The notes under the pieces: model-generated
The model's input: the letters and a program-made list of their open reading frames with translations, nothing else
Told to the model about the DNA's origin: nothing
Databases searched by the model: none
NCBI RefSeq assembly: GCF_021026335.1
Contig: NZ_JAJNCY010000008.1
Location: 162,298 to 226,297 of the forward strand
From: Rhizobium sp. C1
Lineage (GTDB): Bacteria > Pseudomonadota > Alphaproteobacteria > Rhizobiales > Rhizobiaceae
Length of the DNA: 64,000 nucleotides
Direction: 5' to 3'
Shown: piece after piece, positions 41,329 to 56,942 of the stretch
Numbering within the stretch: the first letter of the stretch is position 1
Layout of the letters: each line of letters starts with the position of its first letter
Program-made: the position numbers and the translations under genes

Positions 41329-42840
41329 TCAGTTCTTCACCGTGTCTTCGAGGAAGAAGCGGCCGAGAGGGTTCTGGTAGAAATTGGTGACGTTCTTGCG
41401 CATCACGTTGATATAGGGGCTGTAATAGAGGTCGATCCAGTTGACGTCGGCCTTGGCCATCTTCTGCAGATCGACATACATCGCCTCGCGCTTGGCCGGG
41501 TCTGTTTCGAGACGGGCGGCGGCGACCAGTTCCTTGACCTTTTCATTCTTGTAGCGGGTCATGTAATTCATGTTCGAGTCATCGCCGAGTACGAAGGTCG
41601 TCTTCTGGTCCGGGTCGAGAATATCGTTCGTCCAGTACATGACCGAGATGTCGTAATCGCCGGCGATCAGCATGTCCCAGCTCTGGCTTGGATCGACCTT
41701 CTGGAGATTGGCGGTGACGCCAGCCTTGGCGAGCTGCTGCTGAATGAGAACGGCGATCTGCTCGTCGGTTTCCTTGCCGGCATTGACCACATAGTTCAGT
41801 GTCAGGCCCTCGGCGTCGGCGGCTTTCAGCATCTGCTTGGCCTTTTCCGGGTCGTAGGGACGCTGCAAGTTGTCGGCGTAGTGGTAGAGAGCGCCCTTCG
41901 GAATGTAGGAATTGGCGACTTCGCCGAGACCGAAGGTGGCGGCCTCTACAATGGCCTTCTTGTCGATGGCGAGATCGAGCGCCTCGCGCACTTCCTTCTT
42001 GGCAAGCGCGCCGTGCTGGTGGTTGATCAGCAGATGATCCTCCCGCGTCGAAGGATCCATGCGCACGGTGAGATCCGGGTTTTTCTTCATCTCGGCAACG
42101 CGCGAGAAGGGGACGGTGATCGCCACGTCGATCTGACCGGTCTGGACGTCCAGCATGCGAGTATTGTCGTCCGGAATGACGATCCATTCGACGCCATCAA
42201 GGCTGACATGGCCGGCGTCCCAGTAGTTCGGGTTCTTCTTCAGGATGACGCGGTCGCCGCGCTTCCAGTCTGCCACGGTGAAGGCGCCGGAGCCGACGGG
42301 CTTTTCGGCAAAGGCATCGGGATTGGCCTCGACGATCTTCTTCGGCAGGACCGAGGCATTCGGCAGCGCCATCATCGTGATGAAGGGAACCGATTTGCTC
42401 TTCAGCTTGACGACGAGGGTCTTGTCGTCCGCAGCCGTCGCGGTGTCGATGATCTTGAAGCTGTCAGCCCAGAGCGAACCCTTGTCGTCGCGGATGCGGG
42501 TGAGCGAGAAGGCGGCGTCGCCGGCGGTCACCGGGCTACCGTCCGAGAATTTGGCGTCGCGCAGCTTGAACGTATAGGTCAGACCGTCGTCGGATACGGT
42601 CCAGCTTTCGGCAAGGCCGGGCACGAGCTTGGTGCCCGTGGCATCGACACGGACGAGCACGTCGAAGACGTTGGAGAAGACCCAGTTGTCGACATTCTGC
42701 GCCGACTTGATCGGATCGAAGGTGGTGGAGTCCTCGTTACGGCCGATGGTCAGCACGCCTGCGGCTTCCGCATAGGAGGCCGAAAGGGACAGGACGGCCG
42801 CGAAGGCGGCGATTTTGGCTTTCGTCATCTTGAACTGCAT
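41329..42840 (-). CDS. Peptide ABC transporter substrate-binding protein (family 5) in the pip operon
   Basis: A 503-residue SBP_bac_5 protein. A signal peptide (MTKAKIAAFAAVLSLSASYAEA) is followed by DSTTFDPIKSAQNVDNWVFSNVFDVLVRVDATGTKLVPGLAESWTVSDDGLTYTFKLRDAKFSDGSPVTAGDAAFSL, and RPYDPEKAKQML in the middle lobe. It binds an oligopeptide, opine or peptide-like signal in the periplasm for the adjoining permeases. It is the last gene of the operon that starts with an iminopeptidase-like gene next to the LuxR solo. GAGGAT precedes the ATG. Confidence 0.88.
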   Translation of the reverse strand: MQFKMTKAKIAAFAAVLSLSASYAEAAGVLTIGRNEDSTTFDPIKSAQNVDNWVFSNVFDVLVRVDATGTKLVPGLAESWTVSDDGLTYTFKLRDAKFSDGSPVTAGDAAFSLTRIRDDKGSLWADSFKIIDTATAADDKTLVVKLKSKSVPFITMMALPNASVLPKKIVEANPDAFAEKPVGSGAFTVADWKRGDRVILKKNPNYWDAGHVSLDGVEWIVIPDDNTRMLDVQTGQIDVAITVPFSRVAEMKKNPDLTVRMDPSTREDHLLINHQHGALAKKEVREALDLAIDKKAIVEAATFGLGEVANSYIPKGALYHYADNLQRPYDPEKAKQMLKAADAEGLTLNYVVNAGKETDEQIAVLIQQQLAKAGVTANLQKVDPSQSWDMLIAGDYDISVMYWTNDILDPDQKTTFVLGDDSNMNYMTRYKNEKVKELVAAARLETDPAKREAMYVDLQKMAKADVNWIDLYYSPYINVMRKNVTNFYQNPLGRFFLEDTVKN

Positions 42841-42866: not shown

Positions 42867-44543
42867 TTATGGGTTGGAGTGTCTCGACAGCGGCCGGTCC
42901 GGGTCGATGTCGGGAATGGCGTCGATGAGGCCGGCGGTATAGGCCTCACGGGGGTTGGCGAAGACAGCATCCGACGGGCCTTCCTCGACGATACGGCCGT
43001 GATGCATCACGATAACCCGCTGGCAGAGCGAGCGAACGACCGGGAGGTCATGGGCGATGAAGACCAGCGTCAGGTCCATGGTCGCAACCAGCTTGCGGAA
43101 GAGGGCGACGATCTGCGCCTGGATGGTGACGTCGAGCGCGGCAATGCACTCGTCGGCCACTATGACTCGCGGATCGATGGCGAGCGCCCGGGCGATGCCG
43201 GCGCGCTGACATTGCCCGCCGCTCATCGTGCGCGGCTTGCGCTGCGCAAAGCTGCGGTCGAGTTCGACAAGGTCGAGAAGTTCGTTCACTCGATCCGGTA
43301 TTTGCACCGCCGGGATCTTCTTCTGAACCGTCAGCACTTCGGAGAGCATCTCGCCGATCGTCATGCGCGGATTGAGCGAATTGTAGGGGTCCTGGAAGAC
43401 CATCGCCGCCTGGGTGCGAAGAGCCTGCAGCGCCTGTGTCCGCTGCAGGCGGAGGCTCGAACCGTTGAAGCTGACATGGCCGGAGGAGGCGGGTGTCAGA
43501 CCAAGCATCGCCCGCGCCAGTGTCGACTTGCCCGAGCCGCTTTCGCCAACGATACCAACCGTCTCACCCGGCCAGATTTGCAGCGATACGCCGTCGACCG
43601 CGCTGAAATGCTTGCGCTTCGAAAACAGCCCGCCACCCGTCTGGAACCGCACGGCAAGATCGTCGATCTCGATCAGCGGCCGAACGTCCGCCGACCTTGC
43701 GGCAGGCGCGACGGTGGCCGCATCTGGTTGCACCGGCATGGAGGGGTGGCTCGAGATCAGCGTCTTCGTATACTCGGCCTGCGGGGCTTTCAGGATCTGC
43801 CGCTTCCTGCCGGTCTCAACGATGCGGCCCTGGCGCATGACCGCAATCCGGTCGCAGGTCTGGGCGACGACGCCGAGATCATGCGTCACCAGAATGATGG
43901 AGAGGCCTCGCTTGTCGCGCAAGTCCAGCAGGAGATGCAGTATCTGCGCCTGGATCGTCACGTCGAGCGCCGTTGTCGGCTCGTCGGCGATCAGGATTTC
44001 CGGATTGCAGGCAAGCGCAATGGCGATCATCGCCCGCTGCCGCATACCGCCCGAAAATTCATGTGCATAGCTCGAAAACTGGCGGGGCGGATCGGTGAAG
44101 CCGACCTGGCCCATGATGTCGAGCGCCAGCGATTTGGCCGCTTCGCGCGAGAGGCGTTGATGGAAGACGACGCCTTCCACGATCTGGTCGCCGATGCGCA
44201 TGACCGGATCGAGATGGCTTGTCGGGTTCTGGAAGATCATACCGATGCGGGCGCCGCGGATCGCCTGCAGCGCCGCCTCGTCCGCGCCGGCGATCTCCTG
44301 CCCGTCGAGCAGGATGGAACCGCCACTGCGATGAATTGCGCGTGACGGCATGAGGCCGACCAGCGTCCGGCAAAGAAGGCTCTTGCCTGAACCGCTTTCG
44401 CCGACGAGACCAAGTACCTCGCCACGGGCGAGATCGACCGAGACGCTGTCCAGAAGGATGCGTTCCCCATCCAGTGCATCGACGGCGACGGTCAGATCGC
44501 GGACGGCGAGAAGCGGATGGATGGAATTCAGTTGCACGGTCAT
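42867..44543 (-). CDS. Fused two-domain peptide ABC transporter ATPase (DppD-DppF type)
   Basis: A 558-residue protein with two complete nucleotide-binding domains. Domain 1 has [30 protein letters not shown] and [12 protein letters not shown]. Domain 2, from about 300, has [35 protein letters not shown] and [12 protein letters not shown]. Each has the Cys- and Arg-containing C-terminal oligopeptide-transporter extension region. The fusion replaces separate DppD and DppF subunits. The start at 44543 overlaps the permease stop (ATGA); the open frame further upstream is a shadow. Confidence 0.9.
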
Positions 44544-45361
44544 CCGTTCACTCCCAGCCGCTCGGCAAGCCCGTCGCCTATGAGGGAAAATCCGAAAGCG
44601 AGCACGACGATGGACAGACCCGGAAAGAGCGTGATCCACCAGGCCTGCGTGACGAAGCTCTGCCCTTCCGCAACCATCACACCCCATTCGGCGGTCGGCG
44701 GCTGGACGCCAAGCCCGAGATAGCTGATGGCCGCGCCCGAGAGCAGGACCAGCACGACATCGGACATGGAAAAGACGATGGAGCCGGCCACCGCATTGGG
44801 CAGGAGATGCCGGAAGAGAATGCGCAGGCGCGAGAAGCCGAGGCTCTGGGCGGCCATGGCATAATCGCTGTTCTTGAGAACGAGGATCTGTGCGCGAATC
44901 AGGCGGGCATAGGAGACCCAGCCGACCAGTGCCATCGCGATGTAGAAGCTCGTGAGCCCCGGTCCCAGAATGGCGATGATGGAAAGCATCAGCACGAGAA
45001 ACGGAAAGGCGAGGATCACGTCAATCAGCCGCATGAGAACCGCATCAACGAAGCCGCCGAGGAAGCCGGAAACGGCCCCGATGACCGTCCCGATGGCGAA
45101 GGGGAAGGCAACCCCGATCAGCGCCATCTGGAGATCGATACGTGCCGAATGCATGACGCGAGAGAGGATGTCGCGGCCGAAATTGTCGGTGCCGAAGGGG
45201 TGCGCAAGGCTCGGACCTTTCAGCCGCGCCGCCGCATCCTGAAAGATCGGATCGTAGGGCGCGACAAGCGGGGCCAGCAGCGCCATCAGCACGAAGAGGC
45301 CGAAGATGGCGAGCCCGGCATAAAGCGTTGCGTTGCGTGTCCTGATCATGCCGCCGCTCAT
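44540..45361 (-). CDS. Peptide ABC transporter permease (DppC type)
   Basis: A 273-residue permease with a first helix at about 13-33, the DppC-type linker HPFGTDNFGRDILSRVMHSARIDLQMALIGVAF, and the BPD permease loop YAMAAQSLGFSRLRILFRHLLPNAVAGSIVFS. It forms the inner-membrane pore with the DppB-type partner. It overlaps both neighbours by 4 bp, so the operon is translationally coupled. Confidence 0.9.
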   Translation of the reverse strand: MSGGMIRTRNATLYAGLAIFGLFVLMALLAPLVAPYDPIFQDAAARLKGPSLAHPFGTDNFGRDILSRVMHSARIDLQMALIGVAFPFAIGTVIGAVSGFLGGFVDAVLMRLIDVILAFPFLVLMLSIIAILGPGLTSFYIAMALVGWVSYARLIRAQILVLKNSDYAMAAQSLGFSRLRILFRHLLPNAVAGSIVFSMSDVVLVLLSGAAISYLGLGVQPPTAEWGVMVAEGQSFVTQAWWITLFPGLSIVVLAFGFSLIGDGLAERLGVNG

Positions 45362-46299
45362 AGCTTCACCCGCGGGTCTGCGGCGACGGTGGCGATGTCG
45401 GCCAGGAAGTTGACGAAGACGGTGGCGCAGGCAAAGACCATCGCCACGCCCTGAACCACCATATAGTCGCGCGAGAAGATGGCGCGCACCAGCAATTGCC
45501 CCATGCCCGGCAGCGCGAAGACGCTTTCGACCACGACCGTGCCGCCGATCAGCCAGCCGATATTGACGGCCAGGAGGTTGATCGTCGGGACGACGGAATT
45601 GGGCACGACATGGCGCCAGAACACGATTCGCTCAGGCATGCCGCGGGCGCGTGCTGCTGTCGCCACATCCGATTTCAGCCAGTCGATCATCGCCGCGCGC
45701 AGCGAGCGCATCAGCACGGTGGAGAGCGAGAGCGCAATGGTCAGCGACGGCAGTACGAGATGCACGAGCTTGTCCGACAGCGTGTTGCCGTAGCCCGAGA
45801 CGGGCAGGAGCGGAATGCTGACCGAAAGCAGCAGGATCAGCATGAGCGCCAGCCAGAAGGAGGGAAAGCCGATGCCGAAGGTGGAGACCACGCGCACGGC
45901 ATGATCGACAAACCTGCCCTCGTTGCGCGCAGCGACTGCGGCCAGAGGCACTGCAATCAGGACGGAGAGAAGCACCGAGCAAAATACCAGCGCCAGCGTC
46001 GGCTCGATGCGGGTGACGATCAGCTGCAGCACATCGATCTTGAAGATGATCGAGCGGCCCATTTCGCCATGCAGGAGGTTTTTGACGAAGTAGAAATATT
46101 GCTGCCACATCGGCAGATCGAGCCCGAACTGCGAACGGATATTGGCGATGGCCTCGGGGGTTGCCTTGGTGCCGAGGAGTACGCGCGCCGGGTCTCCGGG
46201 AATGAGCCGGACGAGCACGAAAGTGATGATGGAAACGCCAAGGATCACCGGCAGAAACTGCAGGGGTCTGGTCAGTATGAAGCGATAGCGGTGCAGCAT
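45358..46299 (-). CDS. Peptide ABC transporter permease (DppB type)
   Basis: A 313-residue permease of the DppB/OppB type: ILGVSIITFVLVRLIPGDPARVLLGTKATPEAIANIRSQFGLDLPMWQQYFYFVKNLLHGEMGRSI, and the EAA-like loop ATAARARGMPERIVFWRHVVPNSVVPTINLLAVNIGWLIGGTVVVESVFALPGMGQLLVRAIFSRDY. It starts on the stop codon of the iminopeptidase-like gene (TAATG overlap), so hydrolase and transporter are made from one message. Confidence 0.9.
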   Translation of the reverse strand: MLHRYRFILTRPLQFLPVILGVSIITFVLVRLIPGDPARVLLGTKATPEAIANIRSQFGLDLPMWQQYFYFVKNLLHGEMGRSIIFKIDVLQLIVTRIEPTLALVFCSVLLSVLIAVPLAAVAARNEGRFVDHAVRVVSTFGIGFPSFWLALMLILLLSVSIPLLPVSGYGNTLSDKLVHLVLPSLTIALSLSTVLMRSLRAAMIDWLKSDVATAARARGMPERIVFWRHVVPNSVVPTINLLAVNIGWLIGGTVVVESVFALPGMGQLLVRAIFSRDYMVVQGVAMVFACATVFVNFLADIATVAADPRVKL

Positions 46300-47189
46300 T
46301 AGCCCGACACGTCCTTGAGGAAGGAAAGCAGCGGCGGATAATAGCCCTGCGGGTTTTCATAGAAGGGCATGTGGCTGGCATTGCGCACCACATTGATCCG
46401 CGCGCCTTCCGGCAGGGCATTCTTCATGCGCAGCGCGCAGGCCGGCGTCAGTTCGTCATGCTCGCCGACGACGATCAGCACGGGCGCGGAAATCTTTGGC
46501 AGGTCCGGAATGCGGTTCCAGTCCTTCAGATTGCCGATATAGAGAAATTCGTTCGGTCCCTGCATGGTCATGTAGGCCCCCATGTTCCAGTCTTCGAGCG
46601 AGCGGTTGACCGGAGCTGGCCATTCCGGCAGGCGGCAGACATGGCGGTAGTTCAAAAGCGTGACGGCCGCCATATATTCCGGATGATCATAGGTCCCGGC
46701 AGCCTCATGCGCCTGCATCATCGCCACGGTTTCGGACCCGAGCGCGGCGCGCAGACGCTCCAGTTCGCTCGCCAGATGTGGCATGTCGGCGACGGTGTCG
46801 GCCAAGATGAGGCTCTTGATGGCCTCAGGATAGGTCAGCGCATAGTCGATGGCGAGCCAGCCGCCCCAGGAATGACCGAGCAGATGAACGGCCCCGAGAC
46901 CGAGCGCTTGGCGCACCGCTTCCGTCTCCTCGACATAGCGTTCGATGGTCCAGAGGCTGGCGTCATCTGGGCGGTCGGATGCGCCCGTGCCGAGCTGGTC
47001 GAAGGCGACAACCCGGAAACCCTCGTCTGCCAGACAGGAATGCGCCTCACGCAGATAATCGCAGGGCAGACCTGGTCCGCCATTCAGGCAAAGCAGGGTT
47101 TCCGGGCCGTTGCCGAAGACATAGGCCACGACGCGGTAGCCCTGGATTGTCAGCTCGTGCCTCTCGTCCGGTTCGATTTCGCGCCACAT
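46299..47189 (-). CDS. Proline iminopeptidase-like alpha/beta hydrolase (pip 1, operon leader)
   Basis: A 296-residue S33-type hydrolase. It has the oxyanion-hole motif LCLNGGPGLPCDYL, AFDQLGTGASDRP, the nucleophile elbow HLLGHSWGGWLAIDYAL (Ser about 107), the acid in VVGEHDELTP and the His in NASHMPFYENP. Members release N-terminal proline or hydrolyse amino acid amides; those beside LuxR solos in plant-associated bacteria are of this type. The start at 47189 (MWREIEPDERH) was chosen because AAGGCGAA lies just upstream. It leads the peptide transporter operon and is divergent from the LuxR gene, with a lux-box-like palindrome in the promoter. Confidence 0.88.
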   Translation of the reverse strand: MWREIEPDERHELTIQGYRVVAYVFGNGPETLLCLNGGPGLPCDYLREAHSCLADEGFRVVAFDQLGTGASDRPDDASLWTIERYVEETEAVRQALGLGAVHLLGHSWGGWLAIDYALTYPEAIKSLILADTVADMPHLASELERLRAALGSETVAMMQAHEAAGTYDHPEYMAAVTLLNYRHVCRLPEWPAPVNRSLEDWNMGAYMTMQGPNEFLYIGNLKDWNRIPDLPKISAPVLIVVGEHDELTPACALRMKNALPEGARINVVRNASHMPFYENPQGYYPPLLSFLKDVSG

Positions 47190-47258
47190 GGTTTCGCCTT
47201 TGCATTTGCACAACATTTATGCAGGGTTATTTCTAGAGCAATTGAGGCTCCACACTAG

Positions 47259-47274
47259 CTATCAGAAGTGATAG
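47259..47274. promoter_or_regulatory. lux-box-like palindrome in the pip 1/luxR divergent promoter
   Basis: CTATCA-GAAG-TGATAG is a perfect 6+4+6 palindrome. Toward pip 1 a -10-like TAGAAA (minus strand, about 47235-47230) puts the palindrome centre near -43, the class II LuxR position. The same arms with a different spacer recur before pip 2 at 48106-48121. Confidence 0.75.
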
Positions 47275-47326
47275 GGTGAAGCTGTCCGAGGGGCAGGTTT
47301 GGAAATTCGGCGCGAAAGAGGTTGGC

Positions 47327-48094
47327 ATGAACGTCACAGGCATCGAGGATCGTTTTGCAGCGGCAACCAGCCTCGACCTTCAGATCGACGAGCTTTTCCT
47401 GGCCATGCAGGACTATGGCTTCGATACGCTGATCTACGACTACACGCCGGGCCGCTACGACCTCAGCGGCGAACTCATGATCCCGACGGTTCTGGAGCTG
47501 CGCAATGTCGATGAGACGATGCGCGACTACTGGTGCCGGCGCGGCTATTTCCGTCACGATCCCGTGCAGCATGTGGCGCTCGGCACCACGGCCCCCTTCT
47601 TCTGGAACTACGATCCCAAGGCGCAGACGCTCATTCATGCCTTCATGAACGAGGAAACGGCGCCCGTGGCCGAATTTCTGTGGGAGCGCGGGCTAACGGC
47701 CGGCGTGACCGTGCCGATCCATCTGCCGGGCGGTGACTATGCGACCGTCACCGGCATTCGCGCCGGCGATCCTGTGCGGCTTGAGCGCGACGTGCGGCTC
47801 TGCATGGGCGATTTCAGCCTGATGGCACATCTCTTCCAGCGGACTGCAGCGCTGCGCATTGCCGGAGAACAGGCGCTCTCCGGCTTGCCGCGCCTCACCA
47901 TGCGCGAGCGCGAATGCCTGCGCTATTCGGCGGAAGGCTATTCGGCCAAGGAGATCTCCCGGCTGATCGACCGTTCGGTGCCCACCGTGGTCATGCATCT
48001 CAACGCCGCGACCCGCAAGCTCGGCGCGCGAAACCGCACCCAGGCCGTGGCCCGCGCCGCGCATCTGCGCATGTTCGATCAGCCGCGCAGCTGA
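47327..48094 (+). CDS. LuxR solo of the plant-signal-responsive (OryR/PipR/NesR) subfamily
   Basis: A 255-residue protein with an N-terminal autoinducer-binding domain (about 15-165) and a C-terminal LuxR helix-turn-helix (LTMRERECLRYSAEGYSAKEISRLIDRSVPTVVMHLNAATRKLGARNRTQAVARA). Aligning HDPVQHV with TraR Asp70 places Met at position 57 and Trp at 61, with Asp70 and Trp85 conserved. W57M and Y61W are the hallmark of LuxR solos that answer plant compounds instead of acyl-homoserine lactones. No luxI gene is present. The start at 47327 has AAAGAGG upstream; an ATG at 47276 is less likely because it abuts the palindrome. Flanking hydrolase genes are its probable targets. Confidence 0.9.
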   Translation: MNVTGIEDRFAAATSLDLQIDELFLAMQDYGFDTLIYDYTPGRYDLSGELMIPTVLELRNVDETMRDYWCRRGYFRHDPVQHVALGTTAPFFWNYDPKAQTLIHAFMNEETAPVAEFLWERGLTAGVTVPIHLPGGDYATVTGIRAGDPVRLERDVRLCMGDFSLMAHLFQRTAALRIAGEQALSGLPRLTMRERECLRYSAEGYSAKEISRLIDRSVPTVVMHLNAATRKLGARNRTQAVARAAHLRMFDQPRS

Positions 48095-48105
48095 AGCCAG
48101 ATACC

Positions 48106-48121
48106 CTATCAGTTGTGATAG
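48106..48121. promoter_or_regulatory. lux-box-like palindrome before pip 2
   Basis: CTATCA-GTTG-TGATAG has arms identical to the site at 47259-47274. A -10-like TATTCT at 48146-48151 would place its centre near -44. It lies 11 bp after the luxR stop codon. Confidence 0.75.
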
Positions 48122-48187
48122 CTGCCGCCTCGGCAGTCGCACGCCTATTCTATGCTCCGAATGACTTTCAATCCAAGGAGCGTCCCA

Positions 48188-49099
48188 TTGCTGTCCGTCG
48201 AAACCCGCGAAGGCTTCCTGCCATTCCGAGACTACCAGACCTGGTACCGCGTCACCGGCAATCTCGATAGCGGCAGGCTGCCGCTGGTCGTGGCCCACGG
48301 TGGTCCCGGCTGCACACATGATTATGTCGACAGCTTCAAGGGCATTGCCGCGCTCGATGGACGCGCAGTGATACATTACGATCAGCTCGGCAGCGGCAAG
48401 TCTACGCATCTGCCGGACAAGGGTCCCGATTTCTGGACGGTCTCACTGTTTCTTGAAGAGCTGGATGCGCTGCTGTCGCATCTCGGCATTGCGGATCGCT
48501 ACGCCTTCCTCGGCCAGTCCTGGGGCGGCATGCTGGGCGCGGAACATGCGGTGCGGCAGCCGGAGGGCCTGAAGGCGCTGGTCATCGCCAATTCGCCGGC
48601 CAACATGCATACCTGGGTCGCGGAAGCGAACCGTCTGCGCCGCGATCTTCCGGCCGATGTGCAGGCAACGCTTCTGGCGCATGAAGAAGCAGGCACGCTG
48701 ACGCATCCCGATTATATCGCCGCGTCACGCGTGTTCTACGACCGGCATGTCTGCCGCGTCACGCCGTGGCCCGAGGACGTTGCGCGCACCTTTGCTGCCA
48801 TGGACGAGGATAACACCGTCTATCGCAACATGAACGGCCCGACCGAATTCCACGTCATCGGCACGATGAAGGACTGGACGATCGAGGATCGGCTCGACCG
48901 TATCAAGGCGCCGACGCTGTTGATTTCCGGTGCTTACGACGAAGCGACGCCGGAAGTCGTGCGCCCCTATCGCGAGCGCGTTCCAGATATCTGCTGGGTG
49001 CTCTTCGAGCATTCCAGCCACATGCCGCATGTCGAGGAAAAGGAACTGTGCCTGAAGACAGTTTCCGATTTTCTCGCAGCTCACGACGAGCGCTCCTGA
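48188..49099 (+). CDS. Proline iminopeptidase-like alpha/beta hydrolase (pip 2)
   Basis: A 303-residue S33-type hydrolase. It has [24 protein letters not shown], the nucleophile elbow [17 protein letters not shown] (Ser about 111), a cap domain, the acid in [10 protein letters not shown] and the His in [11 protein letters not shown]. It resembles proline iminopeptidase and L-amino acid amidase and is a divergent paralogue of pip 1, not a recent copy. A TTG start at 48188, 7 bases after AAGGAG, fits a promoter whose -10 is near 48148; the frame is open to an ATG at 48152, which would lie at or before the predicted transcript start. Confidence 0.87.
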
Positions 49100-49314: not shown

Positions 49315-49818
49315 TCAGAGCCCCTGTTTGCCGGCGACCATAAAGGCCAGCTTGGACGGGATGTTGAGGAGGCTCGTCGCGCGCTCGACCCGCTCCGGCG
49401 TGTAATGATGCGCGACGTCAAGGCAATTGACCGTGCCCAGCATCTCGCCGCCGATATAGACCGGCAGGTTGATGACGGATTCGCAGCCGAGCGACTTGAT
49501 CAGCTCATGGTCGGGGAAGACCTTGGCGATGTCCTCGATCGTGTTGGCGACGAAGGCGCGGCGTTCGCCGTGAACGATGTCGAACCATTCATTGCGATGC
49601 GTCGGCTTGGTGCCCGAAGCCGGATAGTTTGCCGGATCGGACGTATAGGCGCGGCGCGCAAGGCCTGCCTTCATGTCGGAAAGCATGACGGTGAAGAGCT
49701 TGGCGCCGATGACCTCGCGAACCAGCGTCTGCAGCGCGATCCAGGGTGCGTCGCCCGCCGTGTCATTGGCAATCGCGCTGTCGAAGGCGGCAAGGGCTGC
49801 CTGGTAGTTGTTTTCCAT
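49315..49818 (-). CDS. Stand-alone GAF-domain protein
   Basis: A 167-residue protein consisting of one GAF domain (about 25-160), with APWIALQTLVREVIGAKLFTVMLSDMKAGLARRAYTSDPANYPASGTKP and ESVINLPVYIGGEMLGTVNCLD. It has no output domain, signal peptide or membrane segment. It is the last gene of the second peptide transporter operon, 18 bp after an ATPase gene, with GGAGAA as ribosome site. It could bind a small molecule related to the transported compound; the function is unknown. Confidence 0.7.
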   Translation of the reverse strand: MENNYQAALAAFDSAIANDTAGDAPWIALQTLVREVIGAKLFTVMLSDMKAGLARRAYTSDPANYPASGTKPTHRNEWFDIVHGERRAFVANTIEDIAKVFPDHELIKSLGCESVINLPVYIGGEMLGTVNCLDVAHHYTPERVERATSLLNIPSKLAFMVAGKQGL

Positions 49819-49836
49819 GGGTGTTCTCCGGAATTG

Positions 49837-50577
49837 TCAGACGGCTGGAGGGGCAGAGAGCCTTAAGAGCTCCCGGCTGTATTCGTTCTGCAGATGCCCC
49901 TTTTTCAGCTTTTCGGCATCGGCGGTTTCGACGATCCGCCCGCCGCGCATGACGGCAAGACGGTCGCAAAGGAAGGAAACGATCGGCAGGTTATGCGTGA
50001 CCATGAGATAGGTCAGCCCGCGCTCGCGCCGCAATCGTTTGAGGAGGTTGAGGATCTCGGCCTGCACGGAGACGTCGAGCGCCGAGGTCGGTTCGTCCAG
50101 TAGCAGCAGCTTCGGCTCGACGATCAGCGCGCGGGCAATCGCCACGCGCTGGCGCTGGCCGCCGGAGAGCTGGTGCGGATAACGGAAGCGGAAGCGGTTA
50201 TCGAGGCCGACATCCTTCAGGATCGCGGCGATGCGCTCGTTGTGGTCGCTTAACCCTTGAATGTTCAGCGGCTCCATCAGCGTCGCGTCCACCGTCTTGC
50301 GCGGATGCAGCGACCCGTAAGGATCCTGGAAGACCATCTGGCAGGTGCGGGCAAATTCGGCTTCGATGCCGTGGCTGCGCGGCTTGCCGAAGATCTCGAT
50401 CGTGCCGCGCCACTCCGGCGCAAGGCCCGCAATCGCCTTCAGCACGGTCGACTTGCCCGAGCCGCTTTCGCCGACAAGGGCGAAGCTTCCGCCTTCCTCG
50501 ACGTCGATGGTCACGCCATGCGTGATCTGCGTTTCGCCATAGGAGACGTCGAGATTGTCGATATGGATCGCGGTCAT
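49837..50577 (-). CDS. Peptide ABC transporter ATPase (DppF type)
   Basis: A 246-residue ABC ATPase: [27 protein letters not shown] (Walker A), the Q-loop in CQMVFQDPYGSLHPRKTV, LSGGQRQRVAIARALIVEPKLLLLDEPTSALD (signature and Walker B) and the switch His in MVTHNLPIV. It energises the DppBC-type permeases of the same operon. It overlaps the preceding ATPase gene by 4 bp. Confidence 0.9.
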   Translation of the reverse strand: MTAIHIDNLDVSYGETQITHGVTIDVEEGGSFALVGESGSGKSTVLKAIAGLAPEWRGTIEIFGKPRSHGIEAEFARTCQMVFQDPYGSLHPRKTVDATLMEPLNIQGLSDHNERIAAILKDVGLDNRFRFRYPHQLSGGQRQRVAIARALIVEPKLLLLDEPTSALDVSVQAEILNLLKRLRRERGLTYLMVTHNLPIVSFLCDRLAVMRGGRIVETADAEKLKKGHLQNEYSRELLRLSAPPAV

Positions 50578-51410
50578 GTGGCGCTCCAGGTGGTGCGGTC
50601 GATGACCGGCAGTTCGTCGCGTGTCTCGTCAAGTCGCGGCTGGGCGGCGAGCAGGCCGCGTGTGTAGGGGTGTTGCGCGTTTTTCAGCTCGGACGCGGCG
50701 CAATCCTCGACCAACCGTCCGGAATTCATCACCAGCACGCGGTCGCAATAATGCGCCACGAGGTTCAAGTCGTGGCTGATCAGGATCAGCCCCATGCCCT
50801 TGTTGCGCACGAGGTCGTCTATGATATCGAGAACCTGCGCCTGCACGGACACGTCGAGCGCCGAGGTCGGTTCGTCGGCAATCAGGATATCCGGTTCGGG
50901 GATGAGCATCATCGCGATCATCACGCGCTGGCCCATGCCGCCGGAAATCTCGTGCGGATAGAGACCGGCAACGCGGTCCGGATCGTTGATGCGTACCGCC
51001 TCCAGCATGGCGCGGACGCGCGCGGCGATCTCGCGGCGCGGCAGCCGCTTGTGGGCGACAAGCGCCTCGGCGATCTGCTCGCCGACCGTCATGACCGGAT
51101 TGAGCGAGAATTTCGGGTCCTGCATGACCATGGAAATGCGCGCGCCACGGATCTTGCGCATGGCCTTTTCGCCCTGCTTCAGAAGATCCATGCCATCGAA
51201 TTCCAGCCGCGTGGCGCTGACCTTGCCGGGCGCACGCACGAGGCCGAGAATGGAGCGGCCGGTCATCGACTTGCCCGAGCCGCTTTCGCCGACAATGCCG
51301 AGGCGTTCGCGGCCGAGTGAGAAGGAAATGCCCTTGACCACATCCACCGGGCCGGACGGGCTGGGGAAGGTGACTTTCAGGTTTTCGACGGCAAGAAGGG
51401 GCGCGCTCAA
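50574..51410 (-). CDS. Peptide ABC transporter ATPase (DppD type)
   Basis: A 278-residue ABC ATPase: [21 protein letters not shown] (Walker A), [77 protein letters not shown], and the DppD-type C-terminus with NAQHPYTRGLLAAQP. The signature reads SGGMGQR instead of the usual SGGMRQR. The start is TTG at 51410 overlapping the permease stop (TTGA) with GGAGAA upstream; the frame upstream of it is a shadow. Confidence 0.87.
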   Translation of the reverse strand: MSAPLLAVENLKVTFPSPSGPVDVVKGISFSLGRERLGIVGESGSGKSMTGRSILGLVRAPGKVSATRLEFDGMDLLKQGEKAMRKIRGARISMVMQDPKFSLNPVMTVGEQIAEALVAHKRLPRREIAARVRAMLEAVRINDPDRVAGLYPHEISGGMGQRVMIAMMLIPEPDILIADEPTSALDVSVQAQVLDIIDDLVRNKGMGLILISHDLNLVAHYCDRVLVMNSGRLVEDCAASELKNAQHPYTRGLLAAQPRLDETRDELPVIDRTTWSAT

Positions 51411-52318
51411 TGCTTTTCTCCGCTCTTGGGGTCGAGAACGTCGCGCAAACCGTCGCCGAGGAAGCAGAAGCCGAGGCTGACAACGATGATGGCGAAGCCC
51501 GGCATGGTGGCGACCCACCATTGATCGAGAATGAAGGTGCGCCCGCGCGCGATCATCGCGCCCCATTCCGGCAGCGGCGGCTGCGCGCCAAGGCCGATGA
51601 AGCCAAGGCCGGCGGCAGTAAGGATGATGCCCGCCATGTCGAGCGTGACGCGGACGATCATCGAGGAGGTGCAGAGCGGCAGGATATGGCCGACGACGAT
51701 ACGAAGGCTCGATGCGCCCTGCAACCGGCTTGCGGCAATGAAATCGGCATTCTTGAAGGTGAGCGTTTCGGCCCGTGCGATGCGGGCATAGCTCGGCCAG
51801 GAGGTGACGGCGATGGCGAGAATGGCGTTTTCAATGCCGGGGCCGAGGGCTGCGACGAGCGCCAGCGCCAGGATGAGCTTCGGCATGGAGAGGAAGATGT
51901 CGGTGATGCCCATGAGGACGCGATCGACCCAGCCGCCGAGATAGCCGGCGGCAGCGCCGATCAGCAGACCCGCAGGCGCTGCGAGAACGGCGACCAGAAT
52001 GACGATGGCGAGCGTGATGCGCGCACCGAAGACGACGCGGGACCAGATATCGCGGCCCAGCTCGTCCGTGCCCATCCAGTTGGCAGCACTTGGCGGGCGC
52101 AGGCGCGCATAGGTATCCTGGGCGATCGGGTCATGCGTGGCGATCCAGGGCGCGAAGACGGCCATGGCGATCAGCGCCAGCACGATGACGAGGCCGACCA
52201 TGGCCAGCGCGTTGCCGCGAAAGGCAAGCGAGATGCGGAAGATGCGGCCCCAGCGGGCCTGCCGGCGCGAGGCGGGGCTTTCGTCGAGAAGCCAGTTGCG
52301 CATGTCAGCAAAGGCCAT
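51407..52318 (-). CDS. Peptide ABC transporter permease (DppC type)
   Basis: A 303-residue permease. It has FRGNALAMVGLVIVLALIAMAVFAPWIATHDP at the first helix, the DppC motif NWMGTDELGRDIWSRVVFGARITLAIVILVAV, and the EAA-like loop DFIAASRLQGASSLRIVVGHILPLCTSSMIVRV. It pairs with the DppB-type permease starting 1.1 kb upstream, whose stop is 5 bp before this gene. Confidence 0.9.
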   Translation of the reverse strand: MAFADMRNWLLDESPASRRQARWGRIFRISLAFRGNALAMVGLVIVLALIAMAVFAPWIATHDPIAQDTYARLRPPSAANWMGTDELGRDIWSRVVFGARITLAIVILVAVLAAPAGLLIGAAAGYLGGWVDRVLMGITDIFLSMPKLILALALVAALGPGIENAILAIAVTSWPSYARIARAETLTFKNADFIAASRLQGASSLRIVVGHILPLCTSSMIVRVTLDMAGIILTAAGLGFIGLGAQPPLPEWGAMIARGRTFILDQWWVATMPGFAIIVVSLGFCFLGDGLRDVLDPKSGEKH

Positions 52319-52323
52319 GCCGG

Positions 52324-53409
52324 TTACCTCGCGCGCGGGTCAAGCACGTCGTAAAGCGCGTCGCTGACCTTGTTGATGATGATGAAGACCGTGCCGATCA
52401 GCAGCGTCGCGCCGAGGACGGCGGCCATGTCGGCGTTGAGCAGCGCGACGGTCAGATAATTGCCAATGCCGGGCCAGGAGAAGATCGTCTCGATCATCAC
52501 CGAGCCTTCGAGAAGTGCGGCATAGGAGAGAGCGCAGACGGTGATGAGCGGCAAGAGGATCGGCCGGAAGGCGTGCCGCCAGATGACCACCCGCTCCGGC
52601 AGGCCCTTCACGCGGGCGGTCGTAATATACTCCTGCGCCAGCTGGTCGAGCATGAAGGACCGCGTCATGCGGGCTATGTAGGCAAGGCTGAAGAAGCCGA
52701 GAATGCAGGCCGGCAGCGCGAGATGGCCGATGGCGTTGAAGAAGATGTCCGTCTCGCCGGCGAGAAGGCTGTCGACAAGCATCAGGCCCGTGACCGGTGT
52801 GACGAGACCATCATAGGCGATATCGACGCGGCCGGGTCCGTCCACCCATTGCAGGCGCGCATAGAAGACCGCAAGCCCGACAAGACCGAGCCAGAAGGCG
52901 GGGATTGCATAGCCTGCAAGGCCTACGACACGGATGACCTGATCGGTCAGGCTCCCCTGTTTGGCGGCGGCATGAACGCCCATGGGCACGCCGAGCGCGA
53001 TGCCGATCAGGATGCCGAGTGTGGCCATTTCCAGCGTCGCGGGGAAGACTTCCTTGAGGTCCTGCAGAACCGGCCGCCCGGTCGAGACCGACATGCCCAG
53101 GTCGCCCGTCGCAACCGCCTTTACGTAAGTCACGAATTGCACGATCAGCGGCTTGTCGAGGCCAAGCTGCACGCGGGCGGCCTCATAGACCGCCTTCGGT
53201 GCACGGTCGCCGACCACGGCCAGCGCCGGGTCGATCGGCACGACGCGGCCGATGAAGAAGGTGATGGCGATGAGGCCGAGAAGCGTGACGATCAGCGAAA
53301 CAGCGATGCCGCCCAAATGCAGCGCCGCCTTGCGGGTGCGCCTGGCGCCGCCGCCGCGCTTGCGAGTGGCTTGGGCTCCCGCGTCGGGGAAGGGTGTGTC
53401 TGTCGCCAC
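52324..53409 (-). CDS. Peptide ABC transporter permease (DppB type)
   Basis: A 361-residue DppB/OppB-type permease. It carries an unusual basic N-terminal extension (ATRKRGGGARRTRKAAL) before the first helix (LGGIAVSLIVTLLGLIAITFFIGRVVPIDPALAVVGD), then EVFPATLEMATLGILIGIALGVPMG and the loop YITTARVKGLPERVVIWRHAFRPILLPLITVCALSYAALLEGSVMIETIFSWPGIGNYL. A GTG start at 53409 was chosen because GAGGAGG lies 6 bases upstream; an ATG at 53427 is the alternative but would place that ribosome site inside the gene. It is the first gene of the operon, divergent from the XRE-cupin regulator. Confidence 0.85.
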   Translation of the reverse strand: MATDTPFPDAGAQATRKRGGGARRTRKAALHLGGIAVSLIVTLLGLIAITFFIGRVVPIDPALAVVGDRAPKAVYEAARVQLGLDKPLIVQFVTYVKAVATGDLGMSVSTGRPVLQDLKEVFPATLEMATLGILIGIALGVPMGVHAAAKQGSLTDQVIRVVGLAGYAIPAFWLGLVGLAVFYARLQWVDGPGRVDIAYDGLVTPVTGLMLVDSLLAGETDIFFNAIGHLALPACILGFFSLAYIARMTRSFMLDQLAQEYITTARVKGLPERVVIWRHAFRPILLPLITVCALSYAALLEGSVMIETIFSWPGIGNYLTVALLNADMAAVLGATLLIGTVFIIINKVSDALYDVLDPRAR

Positions 53410-53440
53410 GCGCGGCCTCCTCGGCATAAAAATTTTCGTT

Positions 53441-53501
53441 CCAGTAAAATTCTGCTTGGAACATACAAATAATTTTGCTTTCATCAAACAAATTTTACTG
53501 G
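53441..53501. promoter_or_regulatory. Inverted repeat in the divergent promoter of the second peptide system
   Basis: CCAGTAAAATT (53441-53451) and AATTTTACTGG (53491-53501) are perfect 11-bp inverted arms, centres 50 bp apart, in very AT-rich DNA between the divergent permease and XRE-cupin genes. The layout suggests two operator half-regions bound by the XRE-cupin protein, possibly with looping. This is inferred from position. Confidence 0.6.
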
Positions 53502-53510
53502 TTTCCGAAG

Positions 53511-54128
53511 ATGACTGCTTCACCGCTCGCCTTGACGACACAAGAACCACAGGCGCCCAAGGTCGGCGCGCTGATACGCGCCCGTCGGCGGCAATTGCAG
53601 CTGACATTGCGCGACATCTGCGAAGCGGCGGGCATCACGCCCGGCTATCTCAGTCAGGTGGAGCGCGACCTTGCCACGCCTTCTCTCGGCACCTTGGCGC
53701 AGATCGCGCATAGCCTCAATGTCGGCGTCGATTACTTCATCGCCTCGCCTGGTGCCGACGATGCCTTGACCCGCCATGGTCAGCGCGAGACGTTTTCCGT
53801 GCCGGGTTCCGACGTGGTTTACGAGCGCGTGGCGGCTGACTTTGCCGGTAACCAGCTCTCATCCTTCGTGCTCAACATCCCGCCGGGTTTCCATTCCGAA
53901 ATCGTCAGCCACGAGGGCGAGGAAATCCTCTTCGTGCTCGAAGGCAAGCTGACGCAGATGCTGGACGGGGCGGAATATATCATGCGTCCCGGCGACAGCC
54001 TGCATTTTCGTGGCAACCGCCCGCATGCCTGGTGGAACGACAGCCAAGAGACAGTGCGCGTGCTCTGGACCGGCACTGTTCCCGTCTACCGCACCACCCC
54101 GCCGAAAGCCGGGGCAAAAGCCGAGTGA
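53511..54128 (+). CDS. XRE-family regulator with C-terminal cupin sensor
   Basis: A 205-residue regulator. The N-terminal helix-turn-helix is IRARRRQLQLTLRDICEAAGITPGYLSQVERDLATPSLGTLAQIAHSLNVGVDYF. The C-terminal cupin_2 domain is PPGFHSEIVSHEGEEILFVLEGKLTQMLDGAEYIMRPGDSLHFRGNRPHAWWN. It resembles the PuuR/SutR type, which repress transport or catabolic genes until the substrate binds the cupin. The start at 53511 (MTASPLAL) puts the first helix in the usual place; the frame is open to 53475. It probably controls both divergent halves of this peptide system. Confidence 0.87.
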   Translation: MTASPLALTTQEPQAPKVGALIRARRRQLQLTLRDICEAAGITPGYLSQVERDLATPSLGTLAQIAHSLNVGVDYFIASPGADDALTRHGQRETFSVPGSDVVYERVAADFAGNQLSSFVLNIPPGFHSEIVSHEGEEILFVLEGKLTQMLDGAEYIMRPGDSLHFRGNRPHAWWNDSQETVRVLWTGTVPVYRTTPPKAGAKAE

Positions 54129-54174
54129 CCCCAAACTAAGAACAAGAATATCCGAGAAAGAGGAGAACAAAGTC

Positions 54175-55767
54175 ATGAAACATTTGCACGCTGCCCTATT
54201 CGCCGCCACGGCACTTTTGCCGCTGACGGCCCTGCAGGCCCATGCCGCGACCCCAAAGGACACGCTGGTCGTGGCCGAAAACATCGACGACATCGTCAGC
54301 ATCGACCCCGCAGAGGCTTACGAATTCTCCTCCGGCGAATATGTGACCCAGACCTATGACCGTCTGGTGCAGTATGACGCGACCGACCTGCAGAAGCTTT
54401 CGCCCGGCCTTGCCACCAGCTGGAAGGCCGACGATGCGGCCAAGACGATCACCTTCACGCTGCGCGACGGCGTCAAGTTCTCCTCGGGCAATCCCCTGCG
54501 CGCCGAAGACGTCGTCTATTCCTTCAAGCGCGTCATCAAGCTCAACAAGGCGCCCGCCTTCCTGCTGACCCAGCTCGGCTGGACCGCCGACAATTTCGAC
54601 AGCATGGTCAAGGCTGACGGCAAGACGGTCACCATCAAGTATACGGGCGACTTCTCGTCCGCCTTCGTGCTCAACGTTCTCGCTTCGCGCCCGGCCTCGG
54701 TCGTCGACGGCAAGACGGTCGAAGCCAATGACAAGGGCGGCGATCTCGGCAATGCCTGGCTGAAGGCGAATTCCGCCGGCACCGGCCCCTTCGTGCTCAA
54801 GGCCTTCAAGCCCGGCCAACTGATCAATCTTGCCGCCAACCCGTCCTATTTCGGCGGCGCACCGGCCGTGAAGTCCGTCGCCATCCGCCATGTTGCGGAA
54901 TCGGCCACGCAGCAGCTCATGCTGAAGTCGGGCGATGTCGACATTGCCAAGAACCTGACGCCGGACCAGATTGCCGCCGTTGAGACCAGCGGCACGTTCA
55001 AGATCGAGACCTATCCGCAGGCCGCCGTCCACTTCCTCAGCCTTAACCAGAAGGACAAGGACCTGACCAACCCGGCCGTCTGGGAAGCCGCGCGTTATCT
55101 CGTCGACTACAAGGGCATGACCGACACGATCCTCAAGGGCCAGATGGAAATTCATCAGGCCTTCTGGCCGAAGGGCTTCCCCGGCGCGCTGAACGACACG
55201 CCCTACACCTATGATCCGGATAAGGCGAAGAAGATCCTCGCCGATGCCGGCATCAAGACGCCGATCACCGCGACGCTCGATGTCATCAACTCCTCGCCCT
55301 TCACCGATATGGCGCAGGCGCTGCAGGCAAGCTTTGCCAAGGGCGGCATCGACTTCAAGATCGTGCCCGGCACGGGCTCGCAGGTCATCACCAAGTATCG
55401 CGCCCGCACGCATGAGGCCATGCTGCTCTATTGGGGTCCGGACTTCATGGATCCGGATTCCAACGCGTCGGCCTTCGCCTACAATGCCGACAACAGCGAC
55501 GGTCACTACCAGTCGACCACGACATGGCGCAACGCCTGGGCCGTTCCGGACGACATGAACAAGGCGACCGTGGCCGCCCGCGCCGAAGCCGATCAGGCCA
55601 AGCGCGACGCGATGTATATCGACCTGCAGAAGAAGGTGCAGGCCAACTCGCCGATCGTCGTCATGTTCCAGGCTGCCAAGCAGGTTGCGCTTGCGAAGAA
55701 CGTCTCGGGCTATGTCAACGGCGCGCTGCCGGACTACGTCTTCTACCGTCTGGTCAAGAAGGACTGA
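54175..55767 (+). CDS. Peptide ABC transporter substrate-binding protein (family 5), second system
   Basis: A 530-residue SBP_bac_5 protein with signal peptide (MKHLHAALFAATALLPLTALQAHA). Family landmarks are SIDPAEAYEFSSGEYVTQTYDRLVQYDATDLQKLSPGLATSWKADDAAKTITFTLRDGVKFSSGNPLRAEDVVYSFKR, and DKAKKILADAG in the middle. It serves the DppBCDF-type components encoded on the other strand. GAAAGAGGAG precedes the ATG; the longer open frame back to 54010 overlaps the regulator gene and is rejected. Confidence 0.88.
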   Translation: MKHLHAALFAATALLPLTALQAHAATPKDTLVVAENIDDIVSIDPAEAYEFSSGEYVTQTYDRLVQYDATDLQKLSPGLATSWKADDAAKTITFTLRDGVKFSSGNPLRAEDVVYSFKRVIKLNKAPAFLLTQLGWTADNFDSMVKADGKTVTIKYTGDFSSAFVLNVLASRPASVVDGKTVEANDKGGDLGNAWLKANSAGTGPFVLKAFKPGQLINLAANPSYFGGAPAVKSVAIRHVAESATQQLMLKSGDVDIAKNLTPDQIAAVETSGTFKIETYPQAAVHFLSLNQKDKDLTNPAVWEAARYLVDYKGMTDTILKGQMEIHQAFWPKGFPGALNDTPYTYDPDKAKKILADAGIKTPITATLDVINSSPFTDMAQALQASFAKGGIDFKIVPGTGSQVITKYRARTHEAMLLYWGPDFMDPDSNASAFAYNADNSDGHYQSTTTWRNAWAVPDDMNKATVAARAEADQAKRDAMYIDLQKKVQANSPIVVMFQAAKQVALAKNVSGYVNGALPDYVFYRLVKKD

Positions 55768-55783
55768 CGAACACTTGCATGAC

Positions 55784-55809
55784 AGGCCGCCGGCGTTGTT
55801 CGGCGGCCT
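55784..55809 (+). terminator. Stem-loop between binding-protein and peptidase genes
   Basis: AGGCCGCCG and CGGCGGCCT form a 9-bp perfect stem with an 8-base loop, 17 bp after the binding-protein gene, followed by TTCCCC. It is probably a 3'-stabilising hairpin or attenuator inside the operon. Confidence 0.6.
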
Positions 55810-55838
55810 TCCCCTAACCTCATTGGATCACAGGAGCG

Positions 55839-56942
55839 ATGCCGATGTTCGAGGCGCGCATGAAACGGCTGACCGCGCGGATGACTGACACCAAGACCGA
55901 TGGCGTATTCGTCGGTCCGACCTCCAATATGAAGTGGCTGGCGGGGTTCGACCCGCATGGCGACGAGCGTCCGGTGATGCTGGTTGTCGGCCCGAAATCC
56001 GCCGCCTTCCTGATGCCGGCGCTGAATGCCGACAGCGCGCGCCAGCACACGGACCTTCCCTTCTTCACCTGGTCCGATGCCGAAGGTCCCGCGGATGCCT
56101 TCGCCACGCTGCTCTCGGAGACCGGCATTGCGGGTGTCGCAAACCCGTCTATCGCGCTCGATGAAACCATGCGCGCCGACTTCGCACTGATGGTCGTGGA
56201 CGCATTGCCTGGCGCGAAACGCGCGTTCCTTGCCGATACGGTAGGCGCACTTCGTGCAGCCAAGGACGAGAGCGAATACAAGCTTCTGAAGATGAACGCG
56301 CTGATCGATGACGAGACGATGCGTTCGGCCTTTGCGGCGCTCAAGCCCGGCATCAGCGAGCTGGAAGCCGCCGAGGTCATCAAGCAGCGCTTTCTGGCAC
56401 AGGGCGCCAAGGCCGAATTCGTCATCGTCTGCTTCGGCGAAAACGGTGCGTTCCCGCACCATCATTCCGGCGAGCGCCGCCTGAAGGCGGGCGATGCGAT
56501 CCTCGTCGATATCGGTGGCCGCAAGGATGGCTATCCGAGCGACATGACCCGCGTCGGCTATTGCGGCACGCCGCCGGAAGGCTTCGAGGAGGTCGTCTCC
56601 GTCGTCGAGCGCGCCGTGCAGGCGGCCGTGGCTGCCGCGCGCCCCGGCGTGAAGGCTTCAGACGTCGACCGCGCCGCCCACGAAACGATTGCGGCGGCCG
56701 GCTATGGCGACCGCTTCCTGCATCGCACTGGCCACGGTCTCGGCATCGACGTGCACGAGCGGCCCTATATCACCGCGACCTCCGATGTCGTGCTTCAGGC
56801 GGGGAACGTCTTCTCCATCGAACCCGGCATCTATCTCACCGACCGCTTCGGCGTGCGGCTGGAAGAGATCGTGATCCTCGGCAAGGACGGGGCTGAAGTC
56901 TTCTCCGAACTCTCCCGCAAGCCCTTCCACGTTGACGGCTGA
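55839..56942 (+). CDS. M24-family metallopeptidase (Xaa-Pro dipeptidase-like)
   Basis: A 367-residue pita-bread-fold peptidase. The N-terminal creatinase-type domain spans about 1-130. The C-terminal catalytic domain has all five metal ligands: Asp and Asp in ILVDIGGRKDGYPSDMTRVGYCG, His in HRTGHGLGIDVHERPYI, Glu in FSIEPGIYLTD and Glu in VRLEEIVIL. It should cleave Xaa-Pro or a related imide/amide bond of the imported compound in the cytosol. Its place behind a peptide-binding protein gene supports a role in dipeptide use. The ribosome site CAGGAG precedes the ATG. Confidence 0.88.
   Translation: MPMFEARMKRLTARMTDTKTDGVFVGPTSNMKWLAGFDPHGDERPVMLVVGPKSAAFLMPALNADSARQHTDLPFFTWSDAEGPADAFATLLSETGIAGVANPSIALDETMRADFALMVVDALPGAKRAFLADTVGALRAAKDESEYKLLKMNALIDDETMRSAFAALKPGISELEAAEVIKQRFLAQGAKAEFVIVCFGENGAFPHHHSGERRLKAGDAILVDIGGRKDGYPSDMTRVGYCGTPPEGFEEVVSVVERAVQAAVAAARPGVKASDVDRAAHETIAAAGYGDRFLHRTGHGLGIDVHERPYITATSDVVLQAGNVFSIEPGIYLTDRFGVRLEEIVILGKDGAEVFSELSRKPFHVDG

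Follow-up and report, generated by a model that had tools for sequence, protein, structure and literature searches.

A LuxR solo of the PipR/NesR type lies between a divergent operon encoding a proline iminopeptidase (pip) and an ABC transporter and a second, downstream pip gene in Rhizobium sp. C1, and it probably activates both through two matching palindromes after binding a small amide- or peptide-like molecule that has been imported. We put the probability of this reading at about 0.75. Within the window (the whole 64,000-nt stretch of DNA analyzed), the locus makes up a complete Pip system: besides the LuxR solo, it encodes two proline iminopeptidases and an ABC transporter of the peptide type. 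The group to which it belongs is a known one, already known in Rhizobium as well; both Rhizobium and Agrobacterium appear in published surveys of the group (PMC10134790, PMC4338825).

Organization and conservation of the Pip locus

The solo gene (positions 47327–48094, plus strand), whose ATG start was taken from the preliminary description of this DNA, is open over 255 amino acids and is divergent from a minus-strand operon. This operon encodes, in order, a proline-iminopeptidase-family hydrolase that is the counterpart of aapA of Pseudomonas sp. GM79 (46299–47189), a DppB/NikB-type permease (45358–46299), a DppC/NikC-type permease (44540–45361), an ABC ATPase with two nucleotide-binding domains fused in one protein (42867–44543, start inferred, ORF open to 44687), and a periplasmic binding protein orthologous to AapF (41329–42840). 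Downstream of the solo, the plus strand encodes a second proline-iminopeptidase-family hydrolase, the counterpart of pipA (48188–49099). The upstream and downstream peptidases scored 270.7 and 260.4 bits, respectively, against TIGR01250, exceeding its cut-off of 167.65. The start of the upstream pip gene was taken at the ATG at 47189, in an ORF open to 47216, whereas that of the downstream pip gene was inferred to be a TTG following AAGGAG at 48175–48180, in an ORF open to the ATG at 48152. Among solved structures, the best match of the binding protein was AapF (7kz8/7kz9; E-value 1.7e−231, 70% identity, with 339 of 481 aligned residues identical to 7kz8), and the next match had an E-value of 3.3e−53. 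The structure listing gives the name alone, and we take this AapF to be the GM79 protein solved with HEHEAA.

Conservation was examined in 57 loci, i.e., the window and 56 alphaproteobacterial relatives (L006–L060 and L085), among them the laboratory strain R. johnstonii 3841 (L059); L061–L063 were dropped from the 58-locus set, their match being limited to a part that includes the DNA-binding region. The AapF ortholog was present in all 57 loci, and the upstream and downstream pip genes were each present in 56 (absent from L015 and L058, respectively), although these loci are related and counts over them are not independent. The ATPase was a single fused protein in the rhizobial relatives that were looked at and was encoded by two genes in Klebsiella and Rahnella. 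Two further loci (L084 and L089) had the same kind of solo and a pip gene; the fetched stretches contained no AapF-like binding protein, the binding proteins there being only 23% identical to AapF, and these solos possibly have different ligands. In a 67% identical relative of the solo (L071, genome G091), one TGA occurred inside the matched stretch or frame, which may reflect a pseudogene or a sequencing error.

The region at 49315–56942 contains a GAF-like ORF, an ABC transporter (49837–53607), an XRE-cupin-like regulator, a second binding protein, and an M24-like peptidase; the GAF, XRE, SBP, and M24 labels were given by eye from the ORFs, and the GAF-like ORF matched no NCBIfam model. We considered and rejected the second dipeptide-type ABC transporter (49837–55767) as a part of the system because the GAF-like, XRE-cupin-like, and M24-like neighbors were matched in none of the 55 loci L006–L060 (E-value 1e−20, fetched stretches).

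The LuxR solo and the residues that mark its family

The solo was aligned with TraR of A. fabrum C58 (L139), which served as the numbering reference. TraR positions 57, 61, 70, 71, 85, and 113 correspond to M65, W69, D78, P79, W93, and G126 of the solo, and the DNA-binding residues E178, L182, and G188 are all kept as E194, L198, and G204. In TraR numbering, the solo therefore reads M57, W61, D70, P71, Q73, W85, L105, G113, E178, L182, and G188. The autoinducer-binding domain (PF03472) was detected with 88.3 bits, and the LuxR-type helix-turn-helix was also matched. The preliminary description, anchored on Asp70 and Trp85, had assigned Met and Trp to positions 57 and 61 and had called the DNA-binding domain intact; the TraR alignment contains both anchors and bears out both statements, with M57/W61 in place of the W57 and Y61 pair of the AHL type. 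M57/W61 was present in all 60 alphaproteobacterial loci and in the best 120 of the 374 proteins nearest to the solo in a similarity search, and the signature is not due to chance.

It had also been stated that luxI is missing. This holds for the window and for contig C21, on which the solo lies, and fails for the genome, in which two luxI-type genes were found (C6:18604–19122 and C1:677730–678239). The protein is thus a solo by position, not a solo in a luxI-free organism. The genome encodes four further PF03472 proteins, two of which have W57 and Y61. On contig C6 (G000; L002 and L064), a TraR-like LuxR with W57/Y61 lies approximately 10 kb from the luxI gene and shares 95% identity with a protein from an Agrobacterium pusense plasmid; C6, which carries both genes, is probably a conjugative plasmid.

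To describe the family, 298 rows (290 distinct sequences and 279 distinct cores) were gathered by similarity and aligned, with the pip context of the rows checked for the fetched loci only. As a background, we used 37 LuxR proteins, comprising 29 loci from a domain search, four paralogs from the same genome, TraR, LasR, and two others; the 29 loci are the best-scoring ones from 61 genomes of the order, a biased draw. W61 was found in 275 of the 279 distinct family cores (three were gapped there and one had Gly), and Gln was found at TraR position 73 in all 279. In the background, Y61 was found in 35 proteins and neither W61 nor Gln73 in any. Because the two residues are near-universal in the family cores and absent from all 37 background proteins, W61 together with Gln73 is, as judged from these alignments, the marker of the family. 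Gln73 has already been noted as a subfamily trait (PMC3821632).

Position 57 is more variable: M57 was found in 208 of the 279 cores and W57 in 67, while three were gapped and one had Leu. The M57 rows are alphaproteobacterial and enterobacterial; the W57 rows are of the Pseudomonas type, the named ones being Pseudomonas and one Paucimonas. L087 is an exception, in that it has M57 although it is of the same family as L086. These counts agree with the literature, in which PipR is reported to retain the conserved Trp at position 57 (PMC4981722) and is listed as W and W (PMC7301841), and in which PsoR and PsaR2 are tabulated as W-W and OryR and NesR as M-W (PMC3909224). The preliminary description had taken W57M/Y61W as the mark of the OryR, XccR, PsoR, NesR, and PipR group; the W61 part of this mark stands, but the M57 part does not, and the list is wrong for PipR and PsoR because both are W57 in the published data and W57 recurs in the cores counted here.

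Phylogenetic position of the solo

A maximum-likelihood tree was constructed from 70 rows hand-chosen from 335 (298 family and 37 background rows). The rows include none named OryR, NesR, or PipR, and the gamma side of the family is represented by Pseudomonas, Kosakonia, Dickeya, Klebsiella, Rahnella, and others. All 47 family rows fell on one side of a single branch, with 100/100 support and in 200 of 200 bootstrap trees; several of the background rows form long branches. The solo groups with Pseudomonas, enterobacterial, and rhizobial relatives in one clade across genera, and its nearest rows in the tree are Rhizobiales isolate L006, Rhizobium straminoryzae, Agrobacterium cavarae, and Rhizobium sp. 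CSW-27. The clade, W61, the pip genes on both sides, and the AapF-type transporter together strongly support placing the solo in the OryR/NesR/PipR group.

Two palindromes as predicted operators of both pip promoters

A palindrome of the family form CTAT(C/A)A-N4-T(G/T)ATAG precedes both peptidase genes. Site 1 (CTATCAGAAGTGATAG, 47259–47274) is the predicted operator of the divergent pip-transporter operon, with its center 77.5 bp before the start codon taken here, and site 2 (CTATCAGTTGTGATAG, 48106–48121) is that of the downstream pip gene, with its center 74.5 bp before the start codon taken here. The inner four bases of the sites are not symmetrical; the sites were missed by a generic palindrome finder, read by eye, and then scored. 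Apart from these two, the genome has no exact copy of CTATCA-N4-TGATAG, and the wider pattern CTATMA-N4-TGATAG likewise matches only there (backwards control, 0). When up to two mismatches were allowed, 35 places in the genome were matched compared with 51 for a control pattern, so these matches are regarded as background; two one-mismatch places (L068 and L069) lie inside stop-free frames. A genome-wide regulon beyond the locus was rejected, and no further targets are claimed. When only the window was shuffled, two matches at up to two mismatches were reached in 17 of 100 shuffles, whereas the real sites are exact.

Site 1 was found in all 57 alphaproteobacterial loci and site 2 in 55, one copy of the latter (L013) having TTATAG. 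The downstream pip gene and site 2 are missing together from L058, and L015, which is missing the upstream pip gene, keeps the transporter operon with site 1 before it; the sites go with their targets. In L056, a metagenome-derived genome, site 2 is one base short and the corresponding pip gene matches in two pieces. A footprint of the window and 24 relatives chosen from the 56 (23 for site 2), compared ungapped, showed both sites to be near-fully conserved amid diverged sequence. Among the six genomes of the genus that were compared, the exact site pair occurred in the two with the solo gene and in none of the other four; the locus is accessory, as it occurs in only two of the six. Across 31 relatives, the wider pattern was matched in 12, of which 4 had the match beside a solo (G000, G452, G462, and G466) and 8 had no solo in the surrounding 3-kb stretch. 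Because of these eight, a single copy means little, and it is the pair that counts.

Beyond each site lies a predicted −10 box, TAGAAA on the minus strand (47230–47235), 23 bp beyond site 1 with a predicted transcription start at 47223, and TATTCT on the plus strand (48146–48151), 24 bp beyond site 2 with a predicted start at 48158. TATnnT exactly 24 bp past site 2 was found in 51 of 55 loci, and TAnAA(A/T) exactly 23 bp past site 1 on the minus strand in 52 of 57, the motifs having been picked after inspection of the footprint. The same motifs directed towards luxR were found in at most 1 of the 57 loci at any gap from 0 to 49. The conserved −10-like boxes therefore point to the two pip genes and not to luxR, and autoregulation of luxR was rejected since no −10 box towards luxR is conserved. 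With the end of the box at −7, the centers of site 2 and site 1 are predicted to lie at approximately −44.5 and −43.5, respectively, close to the −42.5 reported for the center of the lux box (PMC4471428). A sigma-70 scan of 47180–48200 returned neither promoters nor terminators (means of 0.4 and 0.5 in shuffles), an outcome that agrees, if weakly, with promoters that need an activator.

A further seven relatives were searched with the pattern CTAKMA-N4-TKMTAG, and at 0–2 mismatches downstream sites were found in all seven and upstream sites in six (not L084), two-mismatch matches being weak evidence. Sites resembling CTAGCA-N4-TGCTAG occur at the same places in the gamma relatives, and five gamma-type loci (L082, L083, L086, L088, and L090) have a TAnnnT box 23 or 24 bp past the downstream site; none was seen at the single site examined in each of L084 and L089. 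Measured from the start equivalent to that of the window, the site centers of two Pseudomonas relatives (L086 and L090) lie approximately 74 bp before pip and 93.5 bp before the divergent peptidase gene. The GM79 sites are reported at −71.5 (pipA) and −91.5 (aapA), and two base changes in the pipA site abolished PipR-dependent expression (PMC4981722). This agreement in distance with a tested PipR site is the strongest reason for calling the rhizobial palindromes operators of the solo. The palindrome is not universal in the wider group because a lux-box palindrome is reportedly missing from the pip promoter next to psoR (PMC7683790). In the literature searched, no match to the operator strings or to "luxXc box" was found. 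In L082, a two-mismatch counterpart of the "pip box" described for Kosakonia PsrR (PMC7301841) lies at 7763–7782 and has no clear dyad symmetry, while CTAGCATTTTTGCTAG lies upstream of it (7721–7736) at the family-conserved position; the published Kosakonia box may be misplaced.

Comparison with characterized systems

The closest likeness is to the PipR/AapF-PipA system of Pseudomonas sp. GM79 (PMC4981722), which, as described, resembles the window in having peptidase genes and a peptide ABC operon around the solo, an AapF-type binding protein, W61, and an inverted repeat before each of the two peptidase genes at like distances. Q73 is a further likeness to the PipR type, seen here in Pseudomonas relatives among which the GM79 sequence is not included. 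The systems differ in that the window solo has M57 and PipR W57, in that site 1 lies between genes in the window but overlaps the regulator gene in GM79, and in the fusion of the two ATPases in the window; the half-site is CTAT(C/A)A in the window and of the CTAG type in the Pseudomonas relatives. NesR of Sinorhizobium meliloti, known here by description (PMC10134790, PMC3909224), has the same M57/W61 and the same arrangement of a pip gene and peptide transporter on one side and a pip gene on the other. For OryR/XccR of Xanthomonas, which belong to another bacterial class and were likewise compared by description, M57/W61 in OryR, an adjacent pip gene, and an inverted repeat at the pip promoter are reported (PMC3909224, PMC7683790). 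PsrR of Kosakonia is described with adjoining pip and opp-type genes (PMC7301841), and a Kosakonia relative in our alignment (P0195) has the same M57/W61 as the window solo.

Signals to which the solo may respond

The preliminary description had concluded that the organism senses a host plant signal through this protein, a claim that goes beyond the sequence. The plant response of NesR, the nearest rhizobial model, was described as still untried when PMC3821632 was written, and in the case of Kosakonia PsrR, pip was reportedly induced by neither HEHEAA nor rice root macerate, although the authors allow for assay failure (PMC7301841). It is possible, if on the unlikely side, that the solo is a nutrient switch that responds to ordinary peptides or amino-alcohol amides of any source and controls peptide scavenging. 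A PipR response was elicited by protein hydrolysates and by the tripeptide Ser-His-Ser, but leaf macerates also activated PipR (PMC4981722). The operon's products include a peptide-type transporter and aminopeptidases, and the genome contains a gene for an EutB-type ethanolamine ammonia-lyase. Related loci occur in Pseudaminobacter manganicus, in Ancylobacter, and in a genome from a pond metagenome, of which the last two suit such a role. In contrast, a plant, root, or nodule was named in 42 of the 48 family-level plasmid records shown (a spread of 60 of 189), a share that also reflects sampling because rhizobia are mostly sampled on plants.

The remaining alternatives concern the class of signal and the identity of the regulator. 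Eavesdropping on AHLs, either the organism's own or those of neighbors, is extremely improbable: the two luxI-type genes elsewhere in the genome could supply such signals and D70, P71, W85, and G113 are kept in the solo, yet its pocket is changed by Y61W, V73Q, and A105L, and AHLs are reported to elicit no response from PipR (PMC4981722) or OryR (PMC4471428). That the palindromes serve another regulator while the solo acts elsewhere is very unlikely. In its favor, the half-site here is CTA and not the CTG of the classical lux box, and genomes lacking an adjacent solo can contain single copies of the pattern. Against it, within the genus the pair is found only where the solo gene is present, the distance equals that of the mutated PipR site, and CTAGCA-N4-TGCTAG-like sites occupy the corresponding positions in gamma relatives.

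Under the reading of a solo that activates both flanking promoters, the AapF-type transporter would import the ligand, which would fit the W61/Q73 pocket of the solo. The ligand-bound dimer would then occupy the positions near −43.5 and −44.5, from which an activator can make up for the lack of a −35 element, and both promoters would be activated so that import and the peptidases rise together, until hydrolysis of the ligand by the peptidases ends the response. Because matching sites precede both peptidase genes, the solo likely activates import and the peptidases together as a feedback loop. In GM79, a transporter mutant was unresponsive and peptidase mutants over-responded, while the aapA promoter was weakly responsive (PMC4981722); because of this weak response, strong control of the transporter in the rhizobial layout is a guess.

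By homology of the binding protein only, the likeliest ligands would be amides derived from ethanolamine, or analogues resembling peptides, and the best-grounded candidate would be HEHEAA. A solved transporter protein is reported to be needed for HEHEAA import, and failure to bind HEHEAA is reported for a protein closely homologous to the transporter protein of the PipR system (PMC10134790). The EutB-type enzyme is compatible with ethanolamine use but not specific to it. A bolder version of the scheme is doubtful. In this version, the locus would be a self-contained import-sense-degrade switch, in which the solo at approximately −44 on both promoters raises the importer (positive feedback) and the amidases (negative feedback), giving a brief all-or-none pulse in response to an ethanolamine-derived amide that is not necessarily made by plants; W61 and Gln73, rather than Met57, would form the family-wide pocket, and M57 versus W57 would set which amide is read.

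Plant-responsive LuxR solos are widespread, and PipR is described in a review as the one solo tied to a defined small ligand together with its importer (PMC10134790). The locus analyzed here belongs to a known family and, as far as its predicted features indicate, is well preserved, with a clean regulatory map. The analysis adds a precise predicted promoter map for the rhizobial branch, a corrected residue signature, and an AapF ortholog. With these, the question of whether the family reads one ligand or many can be addressed directly, by comparing receptors that have M57 with those that have W57, along with the binding proteins of each.
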